Assembly (NCBI GenBank): GCA_025403435.1 | Contig: CM046348.1 | Span: forward strand, 11,216,606 to 11,280,605 | From: Artocarpus heterophyllus | Lineage: Eukaryota; Streptophyta; Magnoliopsida; Rosales; Moraceae | Direction of reading: 5' to 3' | Length of the DNA stretch: 64,000 bases | Shown: one piece after another, positions 11,914 to 61,529 of the stretch | How positions within the stretch are numbered: the first letter of the stretch is position 1 | Layout of the letters: each line of letters opens with the position of its first letter | The notes under the pieces: model-generated | The model's input: only the letters and a program-made list of their open reading frames with translations | Told to the model about the DNA's origin: nothing | Database searches by the model: none | Made by a program: the position numbers and the translations under genes

Positions 11914-12660
11914 CTACTTGTCATGATTGATAGTTGTGAGATACTTAGCAATGAGATCATCCATGATTTTTTCTACATCTCTTCGACTTTGGAAGAAACA
12001 TGCAATATCAAGAAATATGTCCTTCACTTTGTCGTCCAGTCCACCATAGCGAGTCGCCAATTCTTTAGTTTGAATGTCATCATTTCCAAAAGCATTCCAA
12101 TTGAACCGATCACGAAGGTGATATACTGTAGCTAAATCAGCTCTCATAGTCTTAAGCAGTTGTGGAAATCTAGTTGCTACAATGATTCTATTTCCAACAC
12201 TAAACCGATTGTAGTGCTCTCTCACTAAACGTCGAAACTGGTTTAGATCATCAACATCATCAAGAACAAGAAGGACTCTTCTACTCTGATGCTTCTCGAT
12301 TACAGATGTTGATCTTGAAGACAGACCGCGTAAACGTGGATCTCTTTCGTTAAATAGTTCAGCAAGAAGCTTTATATTTAAGGAAATTAGTCCATTTTTC
12401 TTTGATTCTTCTCCAACATTTGCAAGAAAGCAGCAATCTTCAAATTGAAAAAAGAGGCGGTTATATACGGCATTAGCAAGAGCAGTCTTCCCTACACCAG
12501 TCTCCTCCCAAATTCCTATTACGCAAATATCATGCGAACCAATATGCACTAGCTTTTCAATCTCTTCAATACATTCTTCAATTGTGAGTAGGCCCTTCCA
12601 ACTATCACTTGGAAATGGACGATTCAGTTTTTTACATTCAACATGCATTCTTTCCTGCAC
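11914..12660 (-). pseudogene. captured NB-ARC fragment of a TNL-type resistance gene
   Basis: A 248-codon open frame, antisense to the transposase genes and wholly inside the CACTA element. Order of motifs: CVIGIWEETGVGKTALANAVYN (P-loop; the first P-loop glycine, usually GMGGIGKT, is Glu), FEDCCFLANVGEES (RNBS-A, TIR type), RRVLLVLDDVDD (kinase 2, Asp-Asp kept, TNL-like), NRIIVATR (RNBS-B, usually SRIIVTTR), then LDDKVKDIFLDIACFF (RNBS-D, TNL type). The stretch between WNAF and GGLDD, which should hold the GLPL motif and about 60 residues, is missing, so there is an internal deletion. TIR and LRR domains are absent. It is a gene fragment carried by the transposon rather than a working receptor. 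Whether it is transcribed, and could act on related NLR transcripts, is unknown. Confidence 0.85.
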
Positions 12661-13059: not shown

Positions 13060-16000
13060 ATGACAATTGACAAGAGTTAGATTTTTCAAAATGATCGCTT
13101 TTCTGATCGATACTGGAATGCTGCAATGGCATTTTTGGAAAGAGCAAAAAACTACATGAATGAGAATGGGGTAGTTAGTTGTCCATGCATTAATTGTCTG
13201 AATGTAGCAATACAAACATTACCAGTGGTTGAAGCTCATATAATTAACAAGGGATTTAGTCGAACATATACTATGTGGATATACCATGGAGAATCTTATA
13301 ATGCGAACATTAATGGTTATGAAACACATGAACAATCTACTGACGAGATGCGAAATGTCTTAGATGATGTAGTGGGGGCCAACAATCATGTCGAACCAGA
13401 AGAGTCAAGTCCAACCGAAAAATACAATTCTGGGCAGTTTGAAAAACTTTTTGCTGAGCTTGAGGCAGAGTTGTATCCTAGATGCGAAAACTTTTCATCT
13501 CTTGATTTTTTAGTAAAATTGATGCATCTAAAGGTGCTTCATAGATGGACCAACAAATCTTTTGACTCTTTGCTAAAGCTTTTAAACGAGGCATTACCAG
13601 AGGGGAATAATATTCCTGCTTCACATTATGAGGCCAAGATGAAGTTACGCAAGTTGGGTTTAGGTTACGAGACAATTCATGTGTGCAAGTACAATTGTGC
13701 TTTATTTTGAAAAGAATATGCTATTAGAAACACTTGCCCTATATGTGGTGAGAGTCGATGGGTGAATCCAAACACAAAGAGAAAAAGAGTGCCTCATAAA
13801 GTATTACGCTATTTCCCTTTAAAGGATCGGTTGAAGCGTTTGTATGCGTCGAGACATACTGCAAGAGATATGAGATGGCATGGTTTTGGTCAATCTACGT
13901 AAGGCGTTTTGCAACATCCAGTAGATGGAGAGGCATGGAAGGCATTTGATCGTAGGTATCCTGATTTTGCTTCTGAAGTAAGAAATGTTCGTTTAGGTTT
14001 TGCGGCTGATGGATTTAGTCCGTTTGGAAATATGAGTCAACCTTGCAGTATGTGGCCAGTTATCTTCTCAACATATAATCTACCTCCATGGCTTTGTACA
14101 AAGGAACCATACTTGATGTTGACTTTGTTGATTCCGAGACCTAATGCTCCTGCAAAGGATATAGATGTGTTTTTGAGACCAATTGTAGATGAGTTGAAAG
14201 AGCTTTGGGAGTATGGATTGGTAATTCATGATGCCTACGCTAATGCATCATTTAGGATGCATGCTGCGTTGTTGTGGACTATCAATGATTTTCCTGCTCA
14301 AAGTAGTTTGTCTGGTTGGAGTGGCCAGGGATACAACGCATGTCCAACGTGCATCATGCATACTCCTTCTAAGCGTTTAAGGAGTAAGATGTGTTATATA
14401 GGCCATCAACGATTCCTTCCAACTTCAAATATCATGAGGAGAGACAAACAATTTGACGGTACGATTGAGAAAAGACCCCCGCCTCCACGCTTGTCTACAA
14501 TTGAAATATTAAATCAGTTAGAACGTGTGCGACGTAGATTACCAGGCAAGCACATTGATTTTGGAGGGAAAAAATGTAGGCGAGAACCTAACGAGTTAAA
14601 CTGGACGAAAAAGAGTATATTTTTTGAATTGGAATATTGGTCAAATTTGTTGTTAAAACACAACTTAGATGTCATGCATATTGAGAAGAACGTCTGTGAT
14701 AGCTTGTTGGGCACAATATTGAATATTGATGGGAAGTCAAAGGACACAGACAAAGCAAGAATGGATCTAGCTGACATGCAAATAAGGAATGAATTGCATC
14801 TTTATAAGGATGGGGATCGATGGATGAAACCTCATGCAGACTACACTTTAACTCCTATAGAACGAAAACAATTTGGTTCCTTTATTAAATCCGTTAAGTT
14901 TCCTGATGGGTTTGCGGCAAATTTGAAAAAGAACGTCGATGAAAATGGTAAGATCACTGGACTTAAATCGCACGATTGTCATGTCATCATGCAACGTCTT
15001 TTGCCGGTCGGTATTCGTCCATTTCTGAAGAAAGAGATCACTAATATAATTATTGAACTTTGTTATTTCTTTCAACAAATTTGTTCTAGAACCCTAAAGA
15101 TCTCTGATTAGAGAAAGCTGAAGACCAAATTGTCATAATATTATGCAAGTTGGAAAGAATATTTCCGCCTGCATTTTTCGATATAATGGTTCACTTGGCT
15201 TTTCATTTGCTGGAAGAAGCCATGCAAGGGGGTCCTGTTCATACAAGGTGGATGTACCTTTTCGAGCGATATATTGGGTCACTTAAGCAGTATGTTAGAA
15301 ATCGAGCACGATTGGAATGATCAATTGCAGAAGCTTATGTTGTAAATGAGGCATTGAGTTTCTGTTCACGTTACTTTCATGGTATCGAAACTAAATTCAA
15401 TTGGCCTGAATGGAACCTGCCTAATCATGATTCTGCTCCAAAGAAAACAATATCGGTCTTCCAATCACAATGCCGACCAATGGGAAAGATTGTAGCAACT
15501 CATTTAAATGAGCAATTAAGGAAGAAGGCCGAGTGGTATATTTTAAATAATTACCAAGAGATCCGAAGATACATAGAGTAAGTTTAACTCTTTAATTATT
15601 CACTTTCTAGTATGTAGTATAGCATAAATTTTATGAGACCCATTTCATGTATAGGGAACACATGCGTGAGCTTGAAATTACTGGTAAAAGAAACCTGAAT
15701 AAGGTTCAGATTGATGAATTTCCGACGTGGTTTTACAAGAAGGTAAAAAAAATTTTTAATCTTTTTAGGCGAAAAATCATATTTAAAAATTTAGTAACAA
15801 TAATAATTTTCTCATTATAGGTGTACCATTTACGGAAAAATCATTCACCGGAGGCCACTGATGAATTGCTAGCCTTGGCGTCTGGTCCCAATGACACTAC
15901 ACTATCATACTCTGCTTGTGTGGTAAATGGGGTCAAGTTTGTGTGCAACAATCGTGATGTTGAACAAAAAACACAAAACAGTGGGGTTTCTGTACCTGGT

Positions 16001-16600
16001 GTTGATGACAACATATATTACGGTCAACTCGAAGATGTATTGGTACTTCGATATGTGAATGATTGTTCGGTTGTGTTGTTTAGGTGTAAATGGTTTGACG
16101 CAGATCCAAGAAAGAAAAGAATCTTAAATAATAAAAACTTCACAAGTGTGTTTGTTAATGCCGAGGCTTATAAAGATGATCCCTTTATATTATCATCACA
16201 AGCAAAACAAGTGTTTTATCTTGAAGATCAACTTAATGGCCCTAATTGGAAAGTGGTCCAATAGTTTGGGCATCGACATGTGTGGAATCTTCCTGACATC
16301 GAACAAGAAGATTCTAGTTCAGTTGAGGTGCTACAAGATGCTTATTCAAATTTTGAACTTGTAGTTGAGCTACCCAATTTGGAGTCAACAACATTTAGAA
16401 GAAATGATGTTGATCCTAATGTCGTTGAGAATGCAACACTAATCGAAGTGGGTCATGGAAATGATGGCATTGAGGTTGACCTTGAGATGGATGATACTTT
16501 ACTGGAGTACGACGATGATACAAGCACAGAAAATGAAGATGAAGACGATGATACCAGTTTTGAACAAACTGACAACAAGAGTAGTAGTGATGACGAATAA
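13060..16600 (+). pseudogene. TNP2-type CACTA transposase, decayed
   Basis: Transposase of plant En/Spm elements. Reading from ATG 13060: transposase-associated domain (RYWNAAMAFLERAKNYM, VSCPCINCLN), then the TNP2 catalytic region (CPICGESRW, LRYFPLKDRLKRLY, DGFSPFGNMS, GYNACPTC, HNLDVMHIEKNVCDSLLG), DUF4218-like (MVHLAFHL, GPVHTRWMY, ERYIGSLK, ARLE) and DUF4216-like (YYGQLEDVLVLRY, VVLFRCKWFD) segments and an acidic tail. Introns at 15578-15654 and 15743-15820 are GT-AG. Disabling changes: TAG 13078 and TGA 13708 at tryptophan positions, TAA 13900, a one-base deletion with TAG 15109, TGA 15318 where Gly is expected, and TAG 16262. Surrounding sequence is well preserved, so inactivation is mostly by point mutation. 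Confidence 0.92.
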
Positions 16601-38570: not shown

Positions 38571-38753
38571 TGTACTGTCACAACCTGTTTTTTTTTTTTT
38601 TTCGGGCTGTGGTTTAACACTTTTCTTACTTACGTATCTAAAAAAAAATCTCGCAAATATTTTTTTTAGCTTCAATAAATATATTACATATACATACTAA
38701 AACTTCTTTTATAATTATATGTATAATTACATAAACAACTTTTTTTTTAAACA

Positions 38754-39503
38754 TCACCTACTTAGCATATCCAAAAGAGATTTCGTCGCCCGTTTCATAC
38801 AATCTTCCATATCCTTAGGAGCTTGCCCTCCACTATCAATTATAAGAGCAGTATCGGTTTGGAACATCCTCATCAGTCTTCTTATTCTTTCTCGATCAGT
38901 AGGTACTAGTTCAGGACAAAGACATGCCAATTGATTGAATCTTCTCACAGCATCAGCCATTGACAGATTCCCTTGTCCAAAATTGTTGAATTCCTCTTGT
39001 TATGCAGCCATAGTTTCCACATTAAAATAAGCCCGTCCAAACTCTTCGACCAACTCAGACCAGGTCATTACATCAACGTTTCTCCTGTACTCAACAGACT
39101 CCTACTATCTTTTCGCATCCTTAGTAAGAGAGAAGGAGGCATATAGAACTCTTTCACGATCGCTAAGTCCCATAAACTTCAAAACCCTTTCAATACCAAT
39201 AAGCCAGTCATCTGTGATCAACAGATCTGTAGAACCGTCAAACTCTGGGACTTTCATTCGTCGAAATCTCTCGTAAAATTCAGTAACGAGAACTGCAGGA
39301 GCTATTGAAACTACCAGCTTTGCCTGCAGGGTCGGCGGTGGTGGTGGCAGAGAAGCCGCACATGCTAAGGGTGTAGGGTTTTGTTGAGCCAGGTGCTCTC
39401 TCAACCCTTACATCTCCTGTTCCTGAGCTTGGAGCCTCTGTTGTAGCTCAGCGATTAGGGTCATTAAGTCCGAGTTTACTGCTCCTCCAAGTACTTCCGC
39501 CAT
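38754..39503 (-). pseudogene. gag N-terminal fragment (gag-like A), left arm
   Basis: Reads MAEVLGGAV..., then Pro-rich linker, FYERFRRMKVPEFDGSTD, DDWLIGIERVLKFMG, and after interruptions AVRRFNQLACLCPELVP. This is the conserved core of plant Ty3/gypsy (chromovirus-like) gag. A stop near 39406 and others break it. Counterpart of 44022-44770. Confidence 0.8.
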
Positions 39504-39822
39504 CGATTATGGTTTAAAATCCTACCGTAAAATAATAACATTACATCAACACTCATATTATTGAGTTAATAAAATCATCAAAATTTTCTCAAGTTACATC
39601 AAAACTTTACATAGATGGCTAACATACACACTTAGTAAACTTTCTTGCGCATACTTTTTGTCATTCCGGGAGCAGCAATCTCTTCTAGCCAACATAACAT
39701 TACTGCCGAGAAGCACACCACTTTAGTACACTCATGTACAAAATCAGTAAGTTAAAATTACGCTAGCAACATAGTTCTATACACTAACGATATCAAAAAG
39801 TCATCAAGTGCTCATTTTCTTC

Positions 39823-40613
39823 CTAGTCCGAGTCAACCTCTGACATATCACTATTTTTTGGGTCCTCCTCTGGGTCTTCCTCCTCCTCCTCACTAGAGTC
39901 AGTGGATTCATCATCACTGGCAATAATTGGCTCAGGGGGTACGGGAACATCCTCAGGTTCCTCTTCCTTCTCTTCCTCATCATCTTCATCCATTTCCATT
40001 GAAGGGTCCTCAAGGGGTGCTACCACATTCTGTTCTGCATGCAGCACTTACATAATGAAGTCATCTAAGCTGGGGAAGGCTTTAGGGTACTGAATCTGTT
40101 GTTGTATCTCCACGACAGGTCTCGCCAATACGCCTTAAAAGGTATCTGCAGTGGGATCAATGGTATCATAATATGATGAAATCTCAGGATATAATAGTCC
40201 ATCGGTTCCTTTACGTACCGTTCTTGTATCGGTTCTACATGTATATAAAGCCGACAACGCCAATCTGCCCATACTAACAGGTGCACTCGAACTTGCATAT
40301 CATCGGCGGGTGGTAAAGGTGTAAATTCTGCTAAAATTTGTTCCCTAAAGCCTTGCCAGTCCATACGTTGCTCGTCGGGACCAATCCTAAGCCACCATGC
40401 AAGCGCTTTTCTCTGCAATCGTCCTAAGGCTAATAAAACCTGAAGGTGAGGTGGGATATGGCATGTGGCAAAAATTACTTCTATGGCGTGAAGCCACTCG
40501 GTCAGAACCATGGGCTGTCGACTCCTGTAATATCGTGGGGGTATCATGTCTTGGAAAGCAATGCTTGCTTTTCGATCCGCTTCTGCATTGGGTTCATTAG
40601 GTAGTGTTGCCAT
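39823..40613 (-). pseudogene. second gag-like fragment (gag-like B), left arm
   Basis: Reads MATLPNEPNAEADRKASIAF, MVLTEWLHAIEVIFATCHIP, WWLRIGPDEQRMDWQGFREQ, a retrotransposon-gag pattern distinct from fragment A. An acidic Glu/Asp/Ser tail follows. Broken near 40130. Counterpart of 42815-43617. Confidence 0.7.
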
Positions 40614-40688
40614 CTACTACAATTATCTTAATTAATATATTAATTCCACATAGAGTAAAATCTTAACATTCTTATACTTAAAATTAAA

Positions 40689-41711
40689 CTATCTTACTTG
40701 AGTTGTAGTAGAAGAGCATGTGGCAATGTGCAGTGGAATGGCAGGATATCCGCTCTCCAACAATTTCATTGCCTTCAATGTTGATATTAGCGCATTGGGA
40801 GTTTTGGGAATCTTCCCCAAGTACACAAACTTCTCACCTCCGGAAGGTCGAAATATGACCTTACGATGTTGGCAATTAATCTTGGCAGCATATTTTCCCA
40901 GGAAATCCATTCCCAAAATAACATCATAATCATGAATATCGATTATTATTAAATCGATAAATAATTCTCTACCGCAAATGATAATTGGTACATGACGTAA
41001 CTAATAATCAAAACTTAATACCTCCCTAGAGGGAAGTACGGTCATAAAGGTCCGTTCTATCTTATCCCCTTCATGTCCTATTCGTTTTGCAAATTTAAGT
41101 GATGCAAACGAATGTGTTGCTCCAAAATCAAATAAAACATAAGCATCAGTTTTGACAACAGAGAGCTGACCTGTTACCATTGTTGAGGTTCCTGCATCAT
41201 CCTCTTTTTTAGTGTAAGTGTAAATTCATCCAGTAAGTTCCAGAGCTTCCAATCAGCCTTGACTGATGCTGGGACCTTCATTTTGTGCTTGAATCGCATG
41301 TAGCTAAGTCCCTTGAAGCCTTTGTTGGTTCTGACTATTTTCATTTTGAGAAATGGAGTAGCAGTTTTTGGCATAATGTCCTTCTTTGCCGTAGATGTAG
41401 CATTTATTAGTGCCCGCTTTGCACTCTCCTGCATGTCTTTTTCCACATTGACTGCAGAGAGGTTTGCTATTTCCTCCATCATTTACCTTTTTCTGGGGTT
41501 GCCCTTTCCGGTTCCCTTGGTTGTTTGCGTTCCACTTTCTCTTATTAGTATTATTGCGGTTGCGCATAGTTTGATTGCTCTGGGTCTGACTCTAGCTCAA
41601 ATTACTTCCCTGTCCTTTTACTTCTAAGGCTTGGTTCTGCTTAGCCAAGGCCTTTTCCTCCCTTTGAGCCTTAAAGATCTTCGCCCTTTCTTCCTTATCA
41701 CGAGAGCTGAA
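40689..41711 (-). pseudogene. gag C-terminus, CCHC zinc knuckle and aspartic protease remnants, left arm
   Basis: From the centre outward: a basic stretch (KARREEKALAKQNQA type), two Cys clusters including CYIYGKEGHYAKNC (one knuckle Cys changed to Tyr), then the retropepsin region (LFDFGA at the active site position in its right-arm twin, ILGMDFLGKYAAKINC here). Several stops and frameshifts. Confidence 0.75.
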
Positions 41712-42730
41712 TTCAGGATCTCCCGTGATAAGGAGGAAAAGACGAAGATCTTTAAGGCTCGAAGGGAGGAAAAGGCCTTGGCTAAGCAGAACCAAGCCCC
41801 ACAAGCAAAAGGACAGCGAAGTAATTTGAGCCCGGGTCAGACCCAAAGCAATCAAACTATGCGCAACGGCAATAATAATAATAAGAGAAAGTGAAATGCA
41901 AACAAAACCAAGGGAACCAGAAGGGGCAACCCCAGGAAAAGGTAAATAATGGAGGAAATAGCAAACCTCTCCACAGTCAATGTGGAAAAAGACATGCACG
42001 AGAGTGCAAAACGGGCACTAATAAATGTTACATCTGCGGCAAAAAAGGACATTACACCAGAAACTGCTACTTCATTTGTTAGAATCAGAATAGTCAGAAC
42101 CAGCAAAGGCTTCACAGGACTTAGCTACATGCAGTTAAAGCACAAAATGAAGGTCCTAGCATCATTCAGGGCCGATTAGAAGCTCCAGAACCTACTGGAT
42201 AGATTTACACTTACACTAAAAAGGAGGATGATGCAGAAACCTCAACAATGGTAACAGGTCATCTCTCTATTGTCAAAACTGATGCTTATGTTTTATTTGA
42301 TTTTGGAGCAACATATTCGTTTGCATCACTTAAATTTGTAAAATGAATAGGATATGAAGGGGATAGGATAGAACGAACCTTTAGAACTGTACTTTCTTCT
42401 GGGGAGGTATTAAGTTCTGATTATTGGTTACGTTATGTACCAATTATCATTTGCGATAGACAATTGTTTATCGATTTAATAATAATCGATATTCAATATT
42501 ATGATGTTATCTTGGGAATGGATTTCCTGAGAAAATATGCTACCAAGATTAATTGTCGACATCGTAAAGTCACGTTCCAACCTTCTGGAGTTGAGAAGTT
42601 TGTGTACTTGGGAAAGATTCCCAAAACTCTCAAGGCGCTAATATCAATACTGAAGGCAATGAAATTATTGGAGAACGGATATCCTGTCATCCCACTGCAT
42701 ATTGCCACATGCTTCTCTTGTACAGCTTAA
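41712..42730 (+). pseudogene. gag C-terminus, CCHC zinc knuckle and aspartic protease remnants, right arm
   Basis: Frame pieces read FRISRDKEEKTKIFKARREE, SQCGKRHARECKTGTNKC, CYICGKKGHYTRNC (intact CX2CX4HX4C), YVLFDFGATYSF (retropepsin; D-S/T-G has become DFG, so the active site is damaged) and VILGMDFLRKYATKINC. It starts mid-gag at the palindrome centre. Confidence 0.78.
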
Positions 42731-42814
42731 GTGAGATAGTTTAATTTTAAGTATAAGAATGTTAAGATTTTACTCTATGTAGAGTTAATATATTAATTAA
42801 AATAAATATAGTAG

Positions 42815-43617
42815 ATGGCGGCACCACCTTAGGAACCCAATACGAAAACGGATTGAAGAGCAAGCATTGCTTTCCAAGACATGATACCCCCACGATATTA
42901 CGGAAGTTGACAGCCCATGGTTCTGACCGAGTGGCTTCGCGCCATAGAAGTAATTTTTGCCACATGCCATACCCCACCTCACCTTCAGGTTTTATTAGCC
43001 TCGGGACAATTGCAGAGAGAAGCGCTTGCATGGTGGCTTAGGATTGGTCTCAACGAACAATGTATGGACTGGCAAGGCTTTAGGGAACAAATTTTAGCAG
43101 AATTTACACCTTTACCACCCGCCGATGATATGCAAGTTTGAGTGCACCCGTTAGTATGGGTAGATTGACGTCGTCGGCTTTATATACATGTAGAACCGAT
43201 ATGGGGACGATACGTAGGGAACCAGTGGACCATTATATCTAGAGATTTCGTCGTACTATGATACCATTAATCCCACCGCAGATACCTTTGAGGCGTATTT
43301 GTGATTTGATTTGGCGAGACCTGCCCGTGGAGATACAACAACAGATTCAGTACCCTAAAGCCTTCCCCAGCTTAGATGACTTCATTATGGAAGTGCTGCA
43401 TGCAGAACAGAACGTGGTAGCACCCCTTGAGGACCCTCAAGTGGAAATGGATGACGATGACGAGGAGTTAGAGGAAGAGGAACCTGAGGATGTTCCCATA
43501 CCGCCAGAGCCTATTATTACTAGTGATGATAAATCCACCGACTCTAGTAAAGAGGAGGAGGAAGACCCAAAGGAGGACCCAGAAAATAGTGATATGTCAG
43601 AGGTTAACTCGGACTAG
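42815..43617 (+). pseudogene. second gag-like fragment (gag-like B), right arm
   Basis: Pieces read ASIAFQDMIPPRYY (frame interrupted near its start), MVLTEWLRAIEVIFATCHTP, WWLRIGLNEQCMDWQGFREQ, IWRDLPVEIQQQIQYPKAFP and a Glu-rich tail ending MSEVNSD. Broken by stops near 43139 and by a frame change before 43258. Confidence 0.7.
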
Positions 43618-44021
43618 GAAGAAAATGGGCACTTGATGACCTTTTGATACCGTTAGTGTATAGAACTATGTGGTTGGCGTAATTTTGACTTACTAATTTT
43701 GTACATTAGTGTACTACCAGTAAAGTGGTGTCCTTCTCGACAGTAATGTTAATGTTGGCCGGAAGAGATTATTGCTCCCAGAAATGATAAAAAGTTTATA
43801 TAAGAAAGTTTACTAAGTGTGTATGTTAGCCATCTATGTAAAGTTTTGACCATAGAAGATGTAAAAGAAAAGTAGAAATTAATGAAATGATAAGTTTATG
43901 TTATTGCTTGCATTTATATGGATGCATGTGACTTGAGAAAATTTTGATGATTTTATTAAGTCAGTAATATGAGTGTTGATATAATGTTATTATTTTACGG
44001 TAGGATTTTAAACCGTAAACG

Positions 44022-44770
44022 ATGGCGGAAGTACCTGGAGGACCAGTAAACTCAGACTTAATGACCCTGATCGCTGAGCTACAACAGAGGCTCCAAGCTC
44101 AGGAGCAGGAGATGCAAGGGTTGAGAGAGCAGCTGGCTCAACAAAACCCTACACCCTTAGCACGTGCGGCTTCTCCGCCACCACCACCGCCGGCCCCGCA
44201 GGCAGAGCCGGTAGTTCCAGTAGCTCCTGCAGTTCCTGTTACTGAATTTTACGAGAGATTTCGACGAATGAAAGTCCCAGAGTTTGACGGTTCTACAGAT
44301 CCGTTGGTCGCAGATGACTGGCTTACTGGTATTGAAAGGGTTTTGAAGTTTATGGGACTTAGCGATTGTGAAAGAGTTCTATATGCCTCATTCTCTCTCA
44401 CTAAGGATGCGAGAAGATGGTGGGAGTCTATTGAGCGCAGGAGAAACGTGGATGTAATGACCTGGTCTGAGTTCGTCAAGGAGTTTGGACGGGCTTATTT
44501 TAATGTGGAAACATGGCTGCACAACAAGAGCAATTCAACAATTTTCGACAAGGGAATCTCTTAGTGGCTAATGCTGTGAGAAGATTCAATTAATTGGCAC
44601 GTCTTTGTCCTGAACTAGTACCTACTGATCGAGAAAGAATAAGAAGACTGATGAGGATGTTCCAGACCGATATTGCTCTTATAGTTGATAGCGGAGGGCA
44701 AGCTCCTAAGGATATGGAAGATTGTATAGAACGGGCGACGAAACCTCTTTTGGATCTGCTAAGTAGGTGA
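44022..44770 (+). pseudogene. gag N-terminal fragment (gag-like A), right arm
   Basis: MAEVPGGPVNSDLMTLIAEL, a Gln/Glu coiled stretch, Pro/Ala linker, FYERFRRMKVPEFDGSTDPL, DDWLTGIERVLKFMGLSD, WWESIERRRNVDVMTWSEF. The frame shifts near 44515, then continues as RLMRMFQTDIALIVDSGG...LLDLLSR. The best-preserved gag copy in the element; the C-terminal part of the same gag sits at the palindrome centre. Confidence 0.82.
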
Positions 44771-44951
44771 TGTTTTTTTAAAAAAATTGTTTATGTAATT
44801 ATACATATAATTATAAAAGAAGTTTTAGTATGTATGTGTAATATATTTATTGAATCTAAAAAAAAATATTTGCGAGATTTCTTTTTTTTAAGATACGTAA
44901 GTAAGGAAAGTGTTAAACCACAGCAAAAAAAAAACGGGTTGTGACATGTAC

Positions 44952-52079: not shown

Positions 52080-52227
52080 GTGTCAGGCTGGTTGGCTGTG
52101 TCAGATTTTAATACCAGAGATTGCTGTGGAGACTATTTTGATTGTTCAATAAAGGCGATGTTTTCACCTAGTTGTTTGTATTTTTTGTATTTTGGTTTGT
52201 ATTTATGTGTAATAATGGATATCGTTT

Positions 52228-54590
52228 TGTAACGCCCCTATATGGGGGTTAACAGTTTTTAATGAGATAAAATAAAAATAAATAATAAAAGTAAAACCTT
52301 AAAAATAAAATTTGCCCGGGACTTAAATGAAAACTCTCAACTCAAAAATAAAAATATAAACGACAAATAAACCACAGTTTTAATGTAGCACCTTAAATTT
52401 AATAATATAAACTGTTGTCATCATCATTTTAACCCTCAACACATTATAATACAGTCACAGAAAGTAACAATTGATGCTTACATTATCATGAAGAACATTC
52501 TTTACAATTGAGCAGTCCCAATGTAATATAGTTACATCGCTTCCTCAACTATATTTCTCGTAGCCACCTCACACTTAGTGAGTCCTGAAAAGATATAAAC
52601 ATAAGGGAATGAGCGACACTATGCTCAGTAGAGAAAGCCATTACTCACATTTAGGTTTTTATCATTACCACATTAAAACCTGCATGGTTAGTAGGTTACA
52701 TCATATTCCAGATTATGAGGTTTATTATGATCACATCTTATGGATACCGTAGTTAATCATTACCAAGTGTCATAATTACACATTTATACAAATATTACCA
52801 ATCATCATTGTTCCTAGGTATCCATGTTAAATTGAGTATCACTCAACTCATCGAAACCCAAATGGGCGCACTTGATCACCCTATAAACATTCCAAGGGTG
52901 TTCCGGTGAGGGGACATCAAGCCCCGAGTCCTCACCAAGTCGATTCCTGTACAGTGTGTTCTGGGACTTTCAACCCAAGGAAGCGTCATCGCCTTCCCCC
53001 TACTTTACCTTTTAGGGTATTCATGCCCAAGGACGTAACCGTCGCCCTTTTCATGTCTCACAATTTCTCTATATTAAATCATTATTAATAGAGTTAATTT
53101 TTCCTAACCATGCTTCTCAATTTATAACATGTGTCAATTCATTATGTTCCTCGCCGTACAATACAAGACGAGTCCATGTCATAGTTTCATATGTGATACA
53201 CATATAATATCAGTTCAACATAGATATATATATATTGCGGCAAAACAATCAATTTTAATTCTATAAAAACCTCACAAAAGATGAGTAATAGAATCCCTAC
53301 CTTTTAAGCTTATCAACAGTCTCTTAATCCTGGAATCAATTAACGTTAGCTCCATACTCCCTTGATCCTAAGGCGTGCATAAGGACAATTAAAACTAAAG
53401 CACAACATACAACTACATTCATAAATAAATCATGTGTAAACCTATCTTACTAGTATGCCATTAAAGCTTTTATATAAATCTCTTTTGAATACCACAGTAA
53501 ACAATTTTTGTCTTAACACAATATAAAATGTGAACAAGTAATCTATATGTTTTAGTCCCTAATAAGATTCATCAATCACTTAGGATAATATTGGAAAGGT
53601 TGCAAGACATTAAAGAATTAGGTGGTGAGCAAAGATGGGTTCTTGGTTCAGGTTAGCAGCTGGTATACCATAACAAACTGGCAGATTTACTAGTTTCCAA
53701 TACAAAAATTGAATAATTCTTAGAAAATAAAATACAACTCCGATTTAGGTTTATGATAGCTCGTTAGAAAGCCTAGGATGCTACTTTTCAAATATGCAAA
53801 CCAATTCATAAAATTCATTTTAATTTAATCTTAGAATTTCAAGAAATAACCACTGCCCATAGAGGTATTACAAAGTTTAACAATATAAATTTTCTGTCTA
53901 GGGCATATACACTTAGACTTCATACATATGCTCCAAAATAGCAACAAACATATACTTAGGTTTAAGAACGCAAATTTGAATAATCCTTTAGTATAAAAGA
54001 AAATTTATAAATGAAAGACTAAATTTGTTCATAAGATTCTAACCTCGGATTATGGTTAGTTGGAAGCTTGAAATGGCTTCAAAACAGGTTCCTTTACTTC
54101 GGTATGACTGAAATTCTTGCTCAAATGGAGGTGATGGTGGCTGATTTTTATGGCTGCCTTGAAGAAGTTCTCTAAGTATTTTGCTTCAGCAAAGAAATAA
54201 GAAGAAGAGTGTGGGAACCGTGGAAGAGAAAGGAAGAAAAGATGAAGTCTTTGAAGAGAAGTGATAGAAACAATTATAGAGGAGACATGTTGAAGCATGT
54301 CACGGAGGAAATAAAGAAAATGAGGGTCAAGAGTAGTTGGAAAATATATCCTTATGTCTCATCTAAAGACTTTAACACACATAATGCCAATATGACATTT
54401 TTGAGATTTATTAGAAGTTCTAATGCTTTTTAGTAATCATACTAAATAAATATAGGAGAATTTTAGAAAATTTAAAAATAGATAAAAATAAATATTATAA
54501 AATAAATTTAAATGAAGCAATTTTTTTTTTTATACATTAAAAATTAATTTAATTACCTCAATACCCGTTAGGAGAATAACGAGTGTCACA
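52228..54590 (-). repeat. left LTR (3' LTR of the minus-strand element)
   Basis: Plus-strand ends TGTAACGCCCC and GAGTGTCACA. Matches 58830-61191 base for base in the parts compared except an 11-T against a 10-T run near 54522. Short ORFs inside both copies are not genes. Confidence 0.93.
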
Positions 54591-54610
54591 GCTCTACCCC
54601 CCTTAAAGAA
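54591..54610 (-). other. polypurine tract
   Basis: Minus strand reads TTTAAGGGGGGTAGAGC directly before the 3' LTR, the expected plus-strand primer site of an LTR retrotransposon. A 9-bp hairpin (GAAATTTCG-TCCT-CGAAATTTC) lies just upstream of it at 54608-54629. Confidence 0.75.
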
Positions 54611-55545
54611 ATTTCGTCCTCGAAATTTCAATTCTAGCAATACTAGTAAAAATTTTAATTTCATTATGATTCCAATTCCGAGTCTAAACCGTTAATGTTG
54701 TTTGTCCTCCAAATTTAAGTTATCGTATCTCCACTTATTTACTTGCATAATAAATCTTACTCCTAAATCCCTCAATGAGAGTATTTCTGACAAGTTTCAA
54801 CTTATAACACCGTATAATAGTCTAAGAATCTGATCAGGCATACATATTGACCATACCATGATTCCAGTCCTTCATTGTCCATGGACTGTGATTTACAATC
54901 ACATTTAAGGAGATTGCTAGAGAAATTTTATATACTTCATCTTTAGCTTCCTTTTCCTTTTTGAGTAAGGAAAAGTCAAATATATTTGATTTCATACCTC
55001 AACTAATAAACTAAAACATAATCATAAAACATATATCACAAACACTTCTATTCAAAACCATACATTAAGCTTACTCATAGAGATATTAAACAGAATCTCA
55101 GAGTTGCAGACAAACCCGACATATTTTTCATTAAACAGCTATCCTCATGACACAAACATTCAATCCAAATAATATACTCATATTTCATATGGAATATCCC
55201 CATAACTGACTCTGGTACTTCCACATAATATTAACAGAATATTACACATTACAAACATGATACGGATACGTTTCGAGAGTACAAGGCACTCCGTATACCA
55301 GCTATCCATATCATGCATGCTTAGAGGATACAAAAACATCGATAAACAAAAGATCGGACCTTAAGAAGGATGCGTTTCGAGAGCATCAAGTACTCCGTAT
55401 CCAGCCATCCCGGCATTAGGCTCAATGAATCTAAAAGATTGAACAACGACGTACCACAAGAAACGCAGAATACAAGGCAAACGGTTATTCGTAACACACG
55501 AAATACGGACACACATGCCTACATGCCAAAGATAAAACAAAAAGA

Positions 55546-56235
55546 TTACAGATGGAGATTCAAATCAATTGGCCGCTCCCGGCTTTCCCTTTCCCATTCA
55601 AGCTTGGATGTTGCAGTGTCAGATTCTGGATGTATTATTTGCATTTTATCTATCAATTCCTCAGCTGTTGAAGCAGTGACAAAGATTTGTCTCTCCGATT
55701 CTGTAGTGATGTTTTCTTCCACAGCGTAATCTAGAAATTTCAAAAGACCGTCATAAAAACCCTTTACGTTCAGCAGTCCCAAAGGTTTGGAATAAAAGCC
55801 CAACAATTGCCCACAAGCAACTATAAATATTTCCTCAAGAGTACCTAGACCACCAGGTAATGCTATAAAAGCATCAGAATTATAGATTATGTCTTTAAAA
55901 TTTTTAGGGATACTCCTGACTCCTTCTCCCTTACCTATGGCTTCCTTACAAAGGTTTCCTTCAACTGGAATATGAGGCCAAATTCTTACATCAGTAGCGT
56001 CACTAGACCTAGCTGCTAGTGCCATATTTACCATCATTTTTATACTACCACCCCCATAGATTATGTTAATCTTCTTGCGTGCTAGGACTTGCCCTAAGTG
56101 ATTTGCAGCTTCTAAATAAGCTTTATCTTTTCCAAGGCTGGAACCACAAAAGACACAGACATTCTTTATTTTCTTCGTGGACTGGGAGGTAGACATATTT
56201 GGTTTATAGAAGTGGTTGCTTAATGTCTGCTCCAC
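55546..56235 (-). CDS. LOG-like cytokinin riboside 5'-monophosphate phosphoribohydrolase homologue inside the retrotransposon
   Basis: LOG enzymes cleave ribose 5-phosphate from cytokinin nucleotides, releasing active cytokinin bases. The 229-codon frame is uninterrupted and intronless, whereas plant LOG genes have several introns, so it came in as spliced RNA. Residues about 25-33 (NVCVFCGSS) and 58-64 (IIYGGGS) form the Rossmann nucleotide-binding part; 121-135 is DAFIALPGGLGTLEE, the hallmark PGGxGTxxE with the catalytic Glu; KPLGLLNVKGFYDGLL and TSKLEWE follow as in LOG. Length fits the family (about 210-230). Deviations: GGSIKMMV for GGSIGLMG, and IPKNFKDII where LOG has MHxRKAxM, so the conserved active-site Arg is missing. 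Activity is therefore doubtful, yet the frame is open. It lies in sense with the element, 584 bases after the first ORF. ATG 56193 region (MSTSQ) is an alternative start. Confidence 0.88.
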   Translation of the reverse strand: MEQTLSNHFYKPNMSTSQSTKKIKNVCVFCGSSLGKDKAYLEAANHLGQVLARKKINIIYGGGSIKMMVNMALAARSSDATDVRIWPHIPVEGNLCKEAIGKGEGVRSIPKNFKDIIYNSDAFIALPGGLGTLEEIFIVACGQLLGFYSKPLGLLNVKGFYDGLLKFLDYAVEENITTESERQIFVTASTAEELIDKMQIIHPESDTATSKLEWERESRERPIDLNLHL

Positions 56236-56819
56236 TTAGACTTCGGGTTCTACATGAGATTTTAAAGATGAGAAATATACAAAAAGGGCCAAAGAGATAG
56301 ACGAGTAGGTAATGAAAAGGTAATCCAAAGATTTAAACAAAATCTTGTGCGGATAAGAAAGTAAGATAAGGTGATTGATAGTTTACAGAAAATTTGATTC
56401 ACTTTTTGAAAAAGATTAGACTCTAATTGTATAACTTTTGACAATTGAGAACAATTCGACAGAAGACCCTCATGACACAACTGTAGACTTTTTGACAAAT
56501 ATACACCAAGTCTAGAAATTTAATATAAACGACAAATACTGTAGAACTTTTGAAATTTGAGACACAAATCTTGAAATATCTGGATAAGCTTTTCAAAATT
56601 CAAACATATTACTGTACCGTATGTAACGTGTATGATAAGATAATATATTTTATTATATATATATTTAAGAAAATCATAAATTAAATAAGATATTAACACT
56701 TACTGTATCAATCTAATAATCACAATTATTTCAAACACAAAAGCAAATATTCTGAGTAAAAGAAAAACACAAACTGCTTCAAATAAGTAAAGACTAAATA
56801 ACCTTTATAGAGCGATGAC

Positions 56820-57341
56820 TTATTTCCCATCCAGTTTTCTTATGGCTTGGCAAACAGGATCTAGAAATACCATATTCCTGAGGCGTTGTCTTTCTGTATA
56901 AAATTTAGGCCAGAGTTTAAAAATAGCTCCTTGAACATATCCACTAGGGTGACCGTGAAGAGGAGGATGGATGCTATCCAAGTTCTCCTTTGAAAGTCCA
57001 TCCCTACAAAACCTTATTTTATCCTCTCTATTCGTAGACATATAACCAGGTGAAGTACATTTACCGTTACAATTTTGTCTTCCACATTTGTTACAAGTGA
57101 CCACGATGGCACGAGCTCTTCTTTTCATTGCACTACGACTGGTACCTGTTCCTGGTAAACCGACATCTTGACTAAAGTCACTCGGACGGATTTTCCCCTC
57201 TATCAACATTCTCACATCACAAGGGATACCAAAACGCATAAGAATCCACAACCGAGTAATTCTAGCCTTGTATTTCTTTCTAAGAATCTTTTGGGAGAGT
57301 GATGGGAAATACTTTCTCAGGTGTTGGTACTTTGGGTCCAT
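56820..57341 (-). CDS. 173-aa Cys-cluster protein, first ORF of the LOG-carrying element
   Basis: Intact frame starting MDPKYQHLRKYFPSLSQKI. The first 90 residues are basic (RKKYKARITRLW, SAMKRRARAIVV). Near residues 93-105 is CNKCGRQNCNGKC (CX2CX4CX3C), a possible small zinc site that looks like a shortened gag zinc knuckle with Cys for His. The rest (LHGHPSGYVQGAIFKLWPKF, ERQRLRNMVFLDPVC) resembles nothing I recognise. It could be a degenerate gag-like nucleic-acid-binding protein, or a second captured host gene. It lies about 1.5 kb after the primer site, where gag would normally start, and precedes the LOG-like ORF on the same strand. Confidence 0.6.
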   Translation of the reverse strand: MDPKYQHLRKYFPSLSQKILRKKYKARITRLWILMRFGIPCDVRMLIEGKIRPSDFSQDVGLPGTGTSRSAMKRRARAIVVTCNKCGRQNCNGKCTSPGYMSTNREDKIRFCRDGLSKENLDSIHPPLHGHPSGYVQGAIFKLWPKFYTERQRLRNMVFLDPVCQAIRKLDGK

Positions 57342-58810
57342 GATGAGATGAAAGAAGAGTAAATAGAAAGGAAAAATTAAGATAGTAAATTGCAGAATCC
57401 TAGAATTCCTTCTTCTTTTAGAGAAAAAGAAGAATTTTTAATGAAAAAGAAGAGGATTTGCGATTTAGAGAGAAAATAACAAATTAAGAGAGAAAAAGTG
57501 AACTCGGAGAAATAAGGTCTTACGCACAGTAAACGTATATGTAAACAATAATTAAACCACTGTATATGACACGTATAGAGACCACGTGGGAGAGACAGTG
57601 TGAATCAAACTGATTTAGGATTTGAACTAGGCCCAAATGTTCTAAGTTGAAAATGGTCAGGTTGTTTCGGGCCTTAACACATTTAGAACGAGTTAAATAA
57701 CAAACATAAAATTGAAAACCAATTTGTATAAATCTTAAACCCAATTCAAAGTCCACTATAGATAAGTTAAGTATGAACAACAAATCTAATTTAACGACAA
57801 CAAGGATCTTCCTGAATGATATTTAAAATCATTTCATAACAACATAATCTTCCAGCAACTCAAATAATTTTGTTTTAATCAAAATCTTATTGAACAATAC
57901 ATACACCCATATGTTATTCATAATACTCAACATCTATAAATGGATTCATCATCATTGCTACCAAGGGTTTAGAATGCGACTAACCTTGAAATCAATACGA
58001 TTTACGTCTTTCAACGTAGACCATATCAACGAACAAAGACACTTGATGTTACTACTTAAGAACATCTACAATCCCCACAATTCTACTTACACAATATCGA
58101 ATTTCCTCATATAACAAAATCTTAGGTAACCAAAAGATTCACTGATACACTTAAATACAATGTTCGTAACGAAATATTCCAATTTTGATATTCATGCATT
58201 CTAGACTTTACACAGTCTCAACAGACCAAAAGTCTAACATTTATCTCTCTCAAGATTCAATACCATGATTCCCAACTTATATCATATTCCTCAAATAAAT
58301 AGAACTTTTAAGAAAAGACATTGACACTTATGTGCTCCATCGAATCCACACATAATCATTACTTAGGTTTGAATCAATTACGAAAAATTTGACATATCTA
58401 TGCCAAACTTTAAAATCAATAAATCAAGCCTTATATTTCTTATTGTTTTTCACGAGACAAAAGGCTCTTAAATCCTCGTATCTACACGAATTTCTCATCG
58501 TTTATACGAATTATATATGCTTATAGATCCAAATATTATACGAATCTCTCATAAGCATTCTACTTATAAACTCATTCCATATAATTATCATTCCCTCATA
58601 ACTATTAATACTTTCCTTCTATGTAATTATTGTACTCATATAACCATTAGTATTTTCATTCTATGGCCTTTCCATGTTACATCCTTCTAAACTGTATAAA
58701 TCAATGTGAAGGTTCATTTTGATGATGACAGTGAAAATTCAGCTTCAAAACCATCTCAAAAATATATTTTTTTAAAGTGGTGCTACACTCCCTAGGTTAA
58801 CCGAACCTAG

Positions 58811-58822
58811 GCTCTGATACCA
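58811..58822 (-). other. primer binding site for initiator tRNA-Met
   Basis: Minus strand TGGTATCAGAGC, complementary to the 3' end of plant initiator tRNA-Met (further partial match CCTAGGTT), 7 bases from the 5' LTR edge at 58830. This fixes the element's orientation as minus. Confidence 0.88.
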
Positions 58823-58829
58823 AAAATTC

Positions 58830-61191
58830 TGTAACGCCCCTATATGGGGGTTAACAGTTTTTAATGAGATAAAATAAAAATAAATAATAAAAGTAAAACC
58901 TTAAAAATAAAATTTGCCCGGGACTTAAATGAAAACTCTCAACTCAAAAATAAAAATATAAACGACAAATAAACCACAGTTTTAATGTAGCACCTTAAAT
59001 TTAATAATATAAACTGTTGTCATCATCATTTTAACCCTCAACACATTATAATACAGTCACAGAAAGTAACAATTGATGCTTACATTATCATGAAGAACAT
59101 TCTTTACAATTGAGCAGTCCCAATGTAATATAGTTACATCGCTTCCTCAACTATATTTCTCGTAGCCACCTCACACTTAGTGAGTCCTGAAAAGATATAA
59201 ACATAAGGGAATGAGCGACACTATGCTCAGTAGAGAAAGCCATTACTCACATTTAGGTTTTTATCATTACCACATTAAAACCTGCATGGTTAGTAGGTTA
59301 CATCATATTCCAGATTATGAGGTTTATTATGATCACATCTTATGGATACCGTAGTTAATCATTACCAAGTGTCATAATTACACATTTATACAAATATTAC
59401 CAATCATCATTGTTCCTAGGTATCCATGTTAAATTGAGTATCACTCAACTCATCGAAACCCAAATGGGCGCACTTGATCACCCTATAAACATTCCAAGGG
59501 TGTTCCGGTGAGGGGACATCAAGCCCCGAGTCCTCACCAAGTCGATTCCTGTACAGTGTGTTCTGGGACTTTCAACCCAAGGAAGCGTCATCGCCTTCCC
59601 CCTACTTTACCTTTTAGGGTATTCATGCCCAAGGACGTAACCGTCGCCCTTTTCATGTCTCACAATTTCTCTATATTAAATCATTATTAATAGAGTTAAT
59701 TTTTCCTAACCATGCTTCTCAATTTATAACATGTGTCAATTCATTATGTTCCTCGCCGTACAATACAAGACGAGTCCATGTCATAGTTTCATATGTGATA
59801 CACATATAATATCAGTTCAACATAGATATATATATATTGCGGCAAAACAATCAATTTTAATTCTATAAAAACCTCACAAAAGATGAGTAATAGAATCCCT
59901 ACCTTTTAAGCTTATCAACAGTCTCTTAATCCTGGAATCAATTAACGTTAGCTCCATACTCCCTTGATCCTAAGGCGTGCATAAGGACAATTAAAACTAA
60001 AGCACAACATACAACTACATTCATAAATAAATCATGTGTAAACCTATCTTACTAGTATGCCATTAAAGCTTTTATATAAATCTCTTTTGAATACCACAGT
60101 AAACAATTTTTGTCTTAACACAATATAAAATGTGAACAAGTAATCTATATGTTTTAGTCCCTAATAAGATTCATCAATCACTTAGGATAATATTGGAAAG
60201 GTTGCAAGACATTAAAGAATTAGGTGGTGAGCAAAGATGGGTTCTTGGTTCAGGTTAGCAGCTGGTATACCATAACAAACTGGCAGATTTACTAGTTTCC
60301 AATACAAAAATTGAATAATTCTTAGAAAATAAAATACAACTCCGATTTAGGTTTATGATAGCTCGTTAGAAAGCCTAGGATGCTACTTTTCAAATATGCA
60401 AACCAATTCATAAAATTCATTTTAATTTAATCTTAGAATTTCAAGAAATAACCACTGCCCATAGAGGTATTACAAAGTTTAACAATATAAATTTTCTGTC
60501 TAGGGCATATACACTTAGACTTCATACATATGCTCCAAAATAGCAACAAACATATACTTAGGTTTAAGAACGCAAATTTGAATAATCCTTTAGTATAAAA
60601 GAAAATTTATAAATGAAAGACTAAATTTGTTCATAAGATTCTAACCTCGGATTATGGTTAGTTGGAAGCTTGAAATGGCTTCAAAACAGGTTCCTTTACT
60701 TCGGTATGACTGAAATTCTTGCTCAAATGGAGGTGATGGTGGCTGATTTTTATGGCTGCCTTGAAGAAGTTCTCTAAGTATTTTGCTTCAGCAAAGAAAT
60801 AAGAAGAAGAGTGTGGGAACCGTGGAAGAGAAAGGAAGAAAAGATGAAGTCTTTGAAGAGAAGTGATAGAAACAATTATAGAGGAGACATGTTGAAGCAT
60901 GTCACGGAGGAAATAAAGAAAATGAGGGTCAAGAGTAGTTGGAAAATATATCCTTATGTCTCATCTAAAGACTTTAACACACATAATGCCAATATGACAT
61001 TTTTGAGATTTATTAGAAGTTCTAATGCTTTTTAGTAATCATACTAAATAAATATAGGAGAATTTTAGAAAATTTAAAAATAGATAAAAATAAATATTAT
61101 AAAATAAATTTAAATGAAGCAATTTTTTTTTTATACATTAAAAATTAATTTAATTACCTCAATACCCGTTAGGAGAATAACGAGTGTCACA
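58830..61191 (-). repeat. right LTR (5' LTR of the minus-strand element)
   Basis: Direct copy of 52228-54590. The 5' LTR should hold the promoter driving the two ORFs leftwards; no promoter element was pinpointed. Confidence 0.93.
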
Positions 61192-61529
61192 GGTTTGTAT
61201 TTTCCACCTGCTAAATAGCAGCACTGTGTGGGGGTGTTTCTCGACTAGATCTGAATCTATGCCAGGTTGTATGCTCCTTTTGATTCGGTCGATTGGTTTT
61301 GTCCATTGATAGTAGTGGATATTAGTAACTAGCCTTTTATGAGTTTTAATTTGGGCGTCGAATGGGTTCTTCCCTTTTGGGTTTTGATGCCGTCTTTTGT
61401 CCCTATACTTCATCTGATATTTACTCGTGTGGATCCAATCAGTATTCGAGATCATTGATGCCAATAGTGGGTGGCCCATGTAACTTTGTTTGTACTATCT
61501 ATTTTAGTTGAATGAAGCTACATTATCAA
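61192..61529 (+). other. continuation of the GC-rich host segment interrupted by the LTR element
   Basis: Starts 'ggtttgtattttccacctg' and runs on from 52227 ('ggtttgtatttatg') in style. Ends near 'tagttgaatgaagctac' before the AAT repeat. No coding frame recognised. Confidence 0.35.

Follow-up and report, generated by a model that had tools for sequence, protein, structure and literature searches.

Maize Bs1 is an LTR element which carries gene fragments and occurs in low copy number. Two Athila-like elements with similarity to LOGL4 were reportedly described by Steinbauerova in 2011, and our literature search found no report linking retrotransposons with LOGL4. For Gypsy elements of Citrus and Populus, the presence of a LONELY GUY (LOG, YgdH) domain is mentioned, and credited to Steinbauerova 2011, in PMC9289625; the same source describes Gypsy elements of orchids which carry an AlkB-type RNA demethylase, are giant and bear gag-pol. 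In sunflower, Tekay has a 5' additional ORF which was likened to double-stranded-RNA-binding proteins and proposed to be a silencing modulator (PMC11728184). Among plant viruses, cysteine-rich proteins (CRPs) suppress silencing and carry an NLS and a zinc finger (PMC12172455).

The element described here lies in a window of 64,000 nt, which is the whole stretch of DNA analysed. It resembles the Citrus and Populus elements in that a LOG-like ORF is located inside a plant Ty3/gypsy element. According to their source, the consensus sequences of those elements were found via reverse transcriptase, whereas the element in the window has no gag-pol ORF; it further differs by a primer site of the tRNA-Met type (chromovirus or copia type), by a neighbouring virus-like ORF and by a LOG lacking the catalytic arginine. 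With the CRPs of carlaviruses, allexiviruses and mandariviruses it shares a basic run, a zinc-binding arrangement of cysteines after this run and, at the level of the family, the Pfam matches, but here the protein is encoded in a plant LTR element, conserved stretches flank the aligned part, and no other viral gene is found beside it within the window. The orchid elements are likewise LTR elements with a domain also carried by flexiviruses, but differ by their giant size, their gag-pol and the protein concerned. Tekay is comparable in being a chromovirus whose additional ORF has been suggested to influence silencing; its protein is a different one, for which the accessible part of the source names no viral homologue. 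Bs1, finally, is also an LTR element with a non-element coding sequence, but unlike it the element in the window is high-copy.

Structure of the element

The non-autonomous LTR retrotransposon extends over positions 52228..61191, with the minus strand as its sense strand, and has TG...CA ends, near-identical LTRs and an imperfect target duplication (CGTTT at 52223-52227 and GGTTT at 61192-61196, 4/5 bases). TG...CA ends together with the LTR alignment define a 5' LTR of 2362 bp (58830..61191, minus strand) and a 3' LTR of 2363 bp (52228..54590, minus strand). In an alignment of slices which started 4 bases inside the element, the pair differs by a single-base indel in a T run and by no substitution. 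Each LTR holds one 80-aa ORF. Seven bases inside the 5' LTR follows the sequence TGGTATCAGAGCC (58810..58822, minus strand), which we take to be a primer binding site of the tRNA-Met type from its motif and from the call made in the preliminary description. The polypurine tract directly abuts the 3' LTR (54591..54604, minus strand) and reads AAGGGGGGTAGAGC in sense orientation. These features make this an LTR retrotransposon.

Between the LTRs, only two ATG-started sense ORFs of at least 80 aa exist. The first in sense order (56820..57341, minus strand) encodes a 173-aa CRP with a basic run followed by C-x2-C-x4-C-x3-C, the second (55546..56196, minus strand) a 216-aa LOG-like protein in which the motif PGGxGTxxE is kept. 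A 119-aa antisense ORF overlaps the latter; a Pfam search with it at E 1 gave no match. Neither the ORF list nor a three-frame translation judged by eye revealed a long gag-pol-like frame in the element. The preliminary description of a recent element with near-identical 2.36-kb LTRs, a primer site, a polypurine tract and two intact sense ORFs without gag-pol was therefore accurate.

Copia elements too use a tRNA-Met primer site, so that a site of this type is insufficient for an assignment to the chromoviruses. It is not used by non-chromovirus gypsy elements (PMC6317226). An ORF for an integrase with a chromodomain was found in the window element neither in the ORF list nor in the three-frame translation. 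A relative, c37, has LTR pieces 68-87% identical to those of the element and the same primer motif; it contains Retrotrans_gag and SH3_Tf2-1 domains and an integrase match (E 2e-14), and no chromodomain was seen. On the same contig as the element lies a decayed candidate for a gag-pol-bearing chromovirus with similar LTRs.

Relatives of both ORFs occur in other plants. For a LOG relative (P0065) and a CRP relative (P0149) the longest contig has the same length, 8723 bases, a hint that one contig may carry both, although agreement by chance is also seen among short lengths (905, 734). The scan of genome contigs yielded a single locus, L001, at which a CRP is located directly behind a Ty3/gypsy integrase. 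Judged by its motifs, this may be a non-chromovirus gypsy element with the ORF at the Athila-type accessory position. The contig, 3.3 kb in length, is filed in a bacterial MAG and its content is plant-like. A search without a control found no LOG in the genome holding L001.

Copies in the genome

In the element's own genome (985 Mb), the search with the CRP gave 5820 first-look candidates. The best 150 were scored and all were full length without stops, 50 of these 150 at 100% identity. For LOG there were 6120 candidates, of which the best 150, all without stops, were listed at 100%; being the best of the candidates, the scored matches are silent on the share of broken copies. Across the best 150 matches each, 23 CRP-LOG pairs were found in the same order with gaps of 645-648 bp, and no CRP and LOG on opposite strands within 3 kb. 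Altogether, at least 277 loci have one or both ORFs intact. Copy c11 has an LTR pair of 99.7% identity, both ORFs intact and a perfect 5-bp TSD (AGACA). In copy c29 (LTR pair 96.6%) each ORF has one stop and the target duplication matches in 4/5 bases, and in L032, of which a part was read, the CRP is intact and LOG has one stop. The copies occupy different sites with different target duplications. Because of these duplications and the at least 277 loci, the element can be classed as LARD-like, that is, as a large non-autonomous element mobile without gag-pol. This is a young, multicopy family without gag-pol in which both ORFs are intact in many copies, and the expectation of the same two ORFs at different target sites was thus confirmed.

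The cysteine-rich protein

The CRP changes outside those private to the dead copy were 8 synonymous to 2 non-synonymous (binomial p 1e-4), the private ones 2 to 9 (Fisher p 0.009 for the two ratios), which shows purifying selection on the CRP. In three copy pairs, coding divergence was lower than non-coding (p 0.029, 0.003, 0.011). For the LOG-like ORF, the same comparison over four copies gave 4 synonymous to 5 non-synonymous changes versus 10 to 21 among the private changes of the dead copy (p 0.69), and selection among copies, which the preliminary description had proposed to look for in this ORF, did not become apparent. One may ask whether both ORFs are passengers without function for the element, spread when a single master copy recently amplified. 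Such a recent burst predicts the nearly identical LTRs and the identical proteins in many copies, and the LOG counts agree with it; the mostly synonymous CRP changes, the lower coding divergence and the residues which are invariant among CRP relatives across several plant families speak against it. We consider this explanation rather unlikely, while granting it an appreciable chance.

The CRP is a member of a large plant family fitting the Pfam models Viral_NABP and Carla_C4 of carla- and allexivirus CRPs. At E 0.1, Carla_C4 matches 14 of 16 family members (best 3.5e-7) and Viral_NABP 13 of the 16 (best 1.9e-7). A few members additionally had weak, stray matches to families without a relation, such as MCM_OB in two of the 16 (best 0.011). 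When four relatives were tested singly, three scored above both viral cut-offs and the fourth above one; the CRP of L001 matches Viral_NABP above cut-off (E 3.5e-8). The CRP of the window itself matches the two models weakly (0.0096 and 0.1, below the cut-offs) and therefore its viral homology, including the CRP/NABP profile over basic run and zinc finger, rests on these relatives. Against PHROGs and NCBIfam, the CRP gave weak, unrelated matches only, and a scan of viral contigs with the CRP alignments, P0199, the LOG of the window and P0035 yielded no confirmed locus. A first fold prediction from 16 sequences was too poor; a second one from 50 sequences was better and still uncertain (pLDDT 71, pTM 0.36), and comparison of this fold gave no significant viral structural match. 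At rank 2 of 12 in this search appeared a silencing suppressor of Helleborus mosaic virus (E 2.7, probability 0.08).

The short basic run with a zinc finger, as also found in retroviral gag, could have led to a likeness by convergence. This would fit with the alignment of only about 30-90 residues to the viral models, with the sub-threshold scores of the window CRP and with the missing fold match. However, both models meet one common stretch of the CRP, the relatives pass the cut-offs as stated, and a control gag fragment with a zinc knuckle matched Retrotrans_gag alone at E 0.01 and no viral CRP model. Convergence thus appears unlikely. The second ORF of the preliminary description is intact as stated there, whereas its kinship to viral cysteine-rich nucleic-acid-binding proteins had escaped recognition. 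Among the papers listed by our literature search, none reported a carlavirus-type nucleic acid-binding protein, Viral_NABP or Carla_C4 in LTR retrotransposons, and those listed on silencing suppressors in such elements did not either.

The LOG-like protein

The second protein is, as noted before, a full-length, intronless LOG homologue (PF03641, E 9e-22; At2g37210, 2e-43). It has PGGxGTxxE and scores above cut-off with the family profile TIGR00730, but reaches only 85.6 of 300 bits with the enzyme model CtkRMPhLog. Glu122 is kept. Arg99, the proposed catalytic arginine, is replaced by Asn and Trp129 of the prenyl pocket by Gly (positions according to PMC4979012); among 120 listed homologues, the window included, 112 have Arg and 116 have Trp at these sites; Lys100 -> Phe and His97 -> Pro are further changes. 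Asn was found at the Arg99 position in all four element copies read. In CgLOG, alanine at Arg99 or at other AMP-site residues left almost no activity, according to the same source.

Extending the idea of the preliminary description, the element might spread a functional enzyme of cytokinin activation, with the LTR-driven LOG raising cytokinin in the host cell. The full length, the kept motif, the 100% matches mentioned above and the 5 synonymous versus 3 non-synonymous changes between window and c11 (binomial p 0.016 for 5/8) would agree with such a role. The four substitutions, the activity loss of the CgLOG mutants, the Asn shared by the four copies read and the ratios over four copies argue against it, and without the catalytic arginine and the conserved tryptophan a mobile cytokinin enzyme is quite improbable. 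Judged by its residues, the LOG-like protein has probably lost enzyme activity; in all likelihood it either binds nucleotides as a pseudoenzyme or is a passenger. Its location about 646 bp downstream of the CRP in the 23 pairs would require an own message or splicing.

A single transduction event of the Bs1 kind, in which pieces of host genes were picked up once, would suit the intronless LOG of host-gene ancestry, but is refuted in the element's own genome by the 23 fixed-order pairs; the many intact loci and the fact that either ORF has relatives elsewhere among plants also speak against it.

Proposed mode of propagation

We favour, with a probability of roughly 0.6, a non-autonomous chromovirus-type LTR family in which gag-pol was replaced by a two-gene accessory cassette of a putatively silencing-weakening CRP and a LOG-like protein. 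The element would be transcribed from its LTR and primed by tRNA-Met, and a gag-pol-bearing chromovirus with similar LTRs would provide copying and integration in trans. From the viral CRPs we infer an anti-silencing function: the CRP may enter the nucleus or bind RNA and so weaken silencing directed at the element or at its helper. Such an effect would explain why the CRP was retained while gag-pol was lost.

More tentatively, and at somewhat less than even odds, plant LTR retrotransposons may long have carried a homologue of a flexivirus suppressor as an accessory gene which moves between element lineages, behind an integrase in L001 and without gag-pol here. The viral CRPs may have arisen from it, or it from them; in the present genome it would have been kept together with a LOG pseudoenzyme and amplified to hundreds, perhaps thousands of copies.

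Conclusion

Gypsy elements of plants had previously been described to contain LOG domains (PMC9289625). New is a high-copy, gag-pol-less, chromovirus-type element which pairs a LOG-like ORF with a homologue of viral CRPs. The LOG-like part illustrates that an ORF may be intact and bear a famous name and yet encode a pseudoenzyme, and the CRP is the more notable of the two. According to PMC11728184, evasion of RNA silencing by plant retrotransposons is largely unexplained, with few candidate factors encoded by the elements themselves. An element without gag-pol, yet with a constrained homologue of a viral suppressor, makes silencing evasion by a transposon directly testable. If true, a pathogenicity protein of viruses would be tied in its origin to plant mobile elements.

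Anatomy and copies of the element

The element occupies 52228–61191, with its sense on the minus strand. Its LTRs (52228–54590 and 58830–61191) start with TG and end with CA; their alignment shows no substitution, and one base more or less in a T run is the only difference. A tRNA-Met-type primer site lies at 58810–58822 and a polypurine tract at 54591–54604. The internal 4.2 kb hold just two sense ORFs of at least 80 aa, one for a cysteine-rich protein (CRP, 173 aa, 56820–57341) and one for a LONELY GUY (LOG)-like protein (216 aa, 55546–56196); neither the ORF list nor frame translation gave a gag-pol frame there. In what it observed of the element, the preliminary description was correct. 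Elsewhere in the window there is a large inverted repeat at 38593–44934 (arms of about 3 kb, 89–93% alike, one with a retrotransposon gag match), a tnp2-type DNA transposon at 13081–16261 (PF02992, E 6e-90 at 13903–15108), which we take to be CACTA, and an exon or fragment of an NB-ARC disease-resistance gene at 11917–12660 (PF00931, E 5e-9).

Twenty 10-kb and eight 5-kb stretches, evenly spaced, were sampled from the same contig. In L008, L017 and L032, three of the 28, there was family DNA, from an LTR or from the internal part, at 91% or above; L021 held pieces of an LTR relative at 80–87%, whereas L014 held a decayed piece of CRP and L022 just a 37-base match. Further copies were read by enlarging such stretches. 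Copy c11 has an LTR pair 99.7% identical, lacking 378 bp present in the window LTR, both ORFs intact and a perfect duplication, AGACA. In copy c29 (LTR pair 96.6% identical) each ORF has one stop, and the partial copy L032 has an intact CRP and one stop in LOG. Three of the four copies compared (window, c11, c29, L032) have an intact CRP, and two an intact LOG. Near 11.01 Mb of contig C22 of the host genome a solo LTR, whose 5-bp duplication (CCTAG) is perfect, adjoins the complete copy c11, and close to both lies a 4-kb direct repeat, 99.2% identical.

Abundance in the host genome

Searches of the whole genome yielded 5820 first-look candidates for CRP and 6120 for LOG, unscored, from which the best 150 each were scored. 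All 150 CRP matches are full length without stops (50 at 100%, 100 at 99% identity) and all 150 LOG matches are without stops at 100% identity; these sets give a minimum for intact copies but no measure of the broken share, and the window's own LOG copy is not among them. Within the best 150 of each, at least 277 different loci carry CRP and/or LOG. At least 23 CRP–LOG pairs occur there, with CRP first, on the same strand and 645–648 bases apart (626 in the window copy), and no opposite-strand pair within 3 kb. The multicopy family considered in the preliminary description is therefore real and abundant.

On contig C9 (16537152–16564376) five LOG ORFs of 100% identity follow each other on one strand, 6.62–6.66 kb apart, roughly the length of an LTR together with the internal part. 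Such rows are head-to-tail arrays with common LTRs, which probably arose by unequal recombination. Four further neighbouring LOG pairs are spaced at 4.2–6.9 kb; besides C9, the contigs concerned are C7, C4 and C3.

The LOG-like ORF

The LOG-like protein matches TIGR00730 (5.8e-38) and aligns with At2g37210 across residues 5–204, and its score of 85.6 bits is far under the 300 bits that the cytokinin phosphoribohydrolase model demands. Compared with the active-site residues described for CgLOG (PMC4979012), Glu122 is retained, and Arg99 is replaced by Asn, Lys100 by Phe, His97 by Pro and Trp129 by Gly. Among the 120 LOG homologues listed, the window protein included, Arg99 is found in 112 and Trp129 in 116; Lys100 (16 of 120) and His97 (32 of 120) are variable in the relatives, too. 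The glycine-rich stretch GGGSxGLMG is likewise changed. Judged by its residues, the protein has probably lost its activity, and its earlier interpretation as a cytokinin enzyme is probably wrong in view of the changes at Arg99 and Trp129 and of the enzyme model score. In a tree of the 50 sequences left from 120 after thinning, its placement is unsure because no other end branch is as long as its own (1.31 changes per column).

The homologues P0020–P0060, from Populus and metagenomes, are about 217 aa long and come in many slightly differing versions, some under the NCBI name LOGL10; Arg99 is mostly retained in them, Lys100 is not. These proteins, too, may be carried by elements. The YgdH (LOG) domain is already described from Gypsy elements: a survey covering 121 angiosperm genomes lists it for consensus sequences from two Citrus species and, with one filter off, from Populus trichocarpa as well, in agreement with a 2011 report (PMC9289625).

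A virus-like first ORF

By homology, the first ORF encodes a cysteine-rich protein of virus-like type. Its own matches to the Pfam families of carla- and allexivirus CRPs, Viral_NABP (E 0.0096) and Carla_C4 (E 0.1), are both under the curated cut-offs; its viral affinity is carried by its relatives. Fifteen of these were found by single-sequence search and 856 by profile search at E 10 or better; the best 120 of the 856 are all at 4e-74 or better and include plant records from Hibiscus, Xanthoceras, Populus, Acer, Rhamnella and Orobanche. Carla_C4 is matched by 14 of 16 aligned members and Viral_NABP by 13, in both cases with E 0.1 or better. The relatives P0149, P0156 and P0238 pass both cut-offs and the protein of locus L001 that of Viral_NABP; a control gag fragment with a zinc knuckle matched neither family. 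Four cysteines, placed after a basic run, are conserved in 115 of 125, 123 of 126, 124 of 126 and 122 of 126 rows of a 126-sequence alignment. The fold model (pLDDT 71, pTM 0.36) is too uncertain to add weight, and none of its 12 structure matches reached E 0.001. In a midpoint-rooted tree of 91 of the 126 rows (near-identical rows and those below 130 aa removed), the window protein clusters with P0002 and P0003, separate from the other 88.

Viral CRPs of this type are described as proteins that combine a zinc finger with a nuclear localisation signal and serve as silencing suppressors and pathogenicity determinants, one being a transcription factor that causes hyperplasia (PMC12172455). CRP is not among the non-canonical domains named in the domain section of the angiosperm survey, nor does the word carlavirus occur in that paper (PMC9289625), and in the open-licence literature searched we found no report that links viral-type CRPs with plant LTR elements.

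Selection was counted at two-state sites over the four copies, and changes that occur only in c29, the dead copy, were treated as a set of their own; since the copies are few and related, the p-values are indicative. CRP has 8 synonymous and 2 non-synonymous changes outside the c29-private set (binomial p 1e-4) versus 2 and 9, stop included, within it (Fisher p 0.009). For LOG the counts are 4 and 5 (one of the five being the stop in L032) versus 10 and 21 (p 0.69), thus selection on LOG is not demonstrated over these copies. Between window and c11 only, CRP shows 4 synonymous and 1 non-synonymous changes and LOG 5 and 3. In three copy pairs the whole coding DNA is less divergent than the non-coding (p 0.029, 0.003, 0.011); for window versus c11, neither single ORF falls below 0.05 (LOG 0.16, CRP 0.086).

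Possible origin and function

L001 (DAIEQH010000041.1), the sole locus read outside the host genome, is a retrotransposon contig of plant-like content in a MAG assigned to Candidatus Nomurabacteria, where it is probably a contamination of the public genome. Its integrase ORF matches rve (2.1e-16) and a zinc-binding domain (1.1e-12), while neither a chromodomain nor SH3_Tf2-1 is matched at E 0.1, and is followed after about 190 bases by a CRP ORF in the same sense; the 983 bases behind the latter hold no LOG. Thus, at least one gypsy element with an integrase has CRP as a 3' accessory gene. This element is apparently not a chromovirus and, by its integrase motifs, is presumably Athila-like. In contrast, the window element has a primer site of the tRNA-Met type, described as not used by non-chromovirus gypsy elements (PMC6317226).

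The best reading of the window element is that of a non-autonomous chromovirus derivative. On the same contig, the decayed relative c37 has LTR pieces 68–87% alike and an identical primer motif, together with gag and SH3_Tf2-1 domains, a match to integrase (E 2e-14) and a frame which, from its motifs, we take to be of RT type. Elements of the c37 type could provide proteins in trans. The LOG-like protein might bind nucleotides but leave them unhydrolysed; it might instead pair with the LOG of the host or have no role at all. CRP may keep the element, or else its helper, from being silenced, and it is this virus-like protein that is the part of the element worth following.
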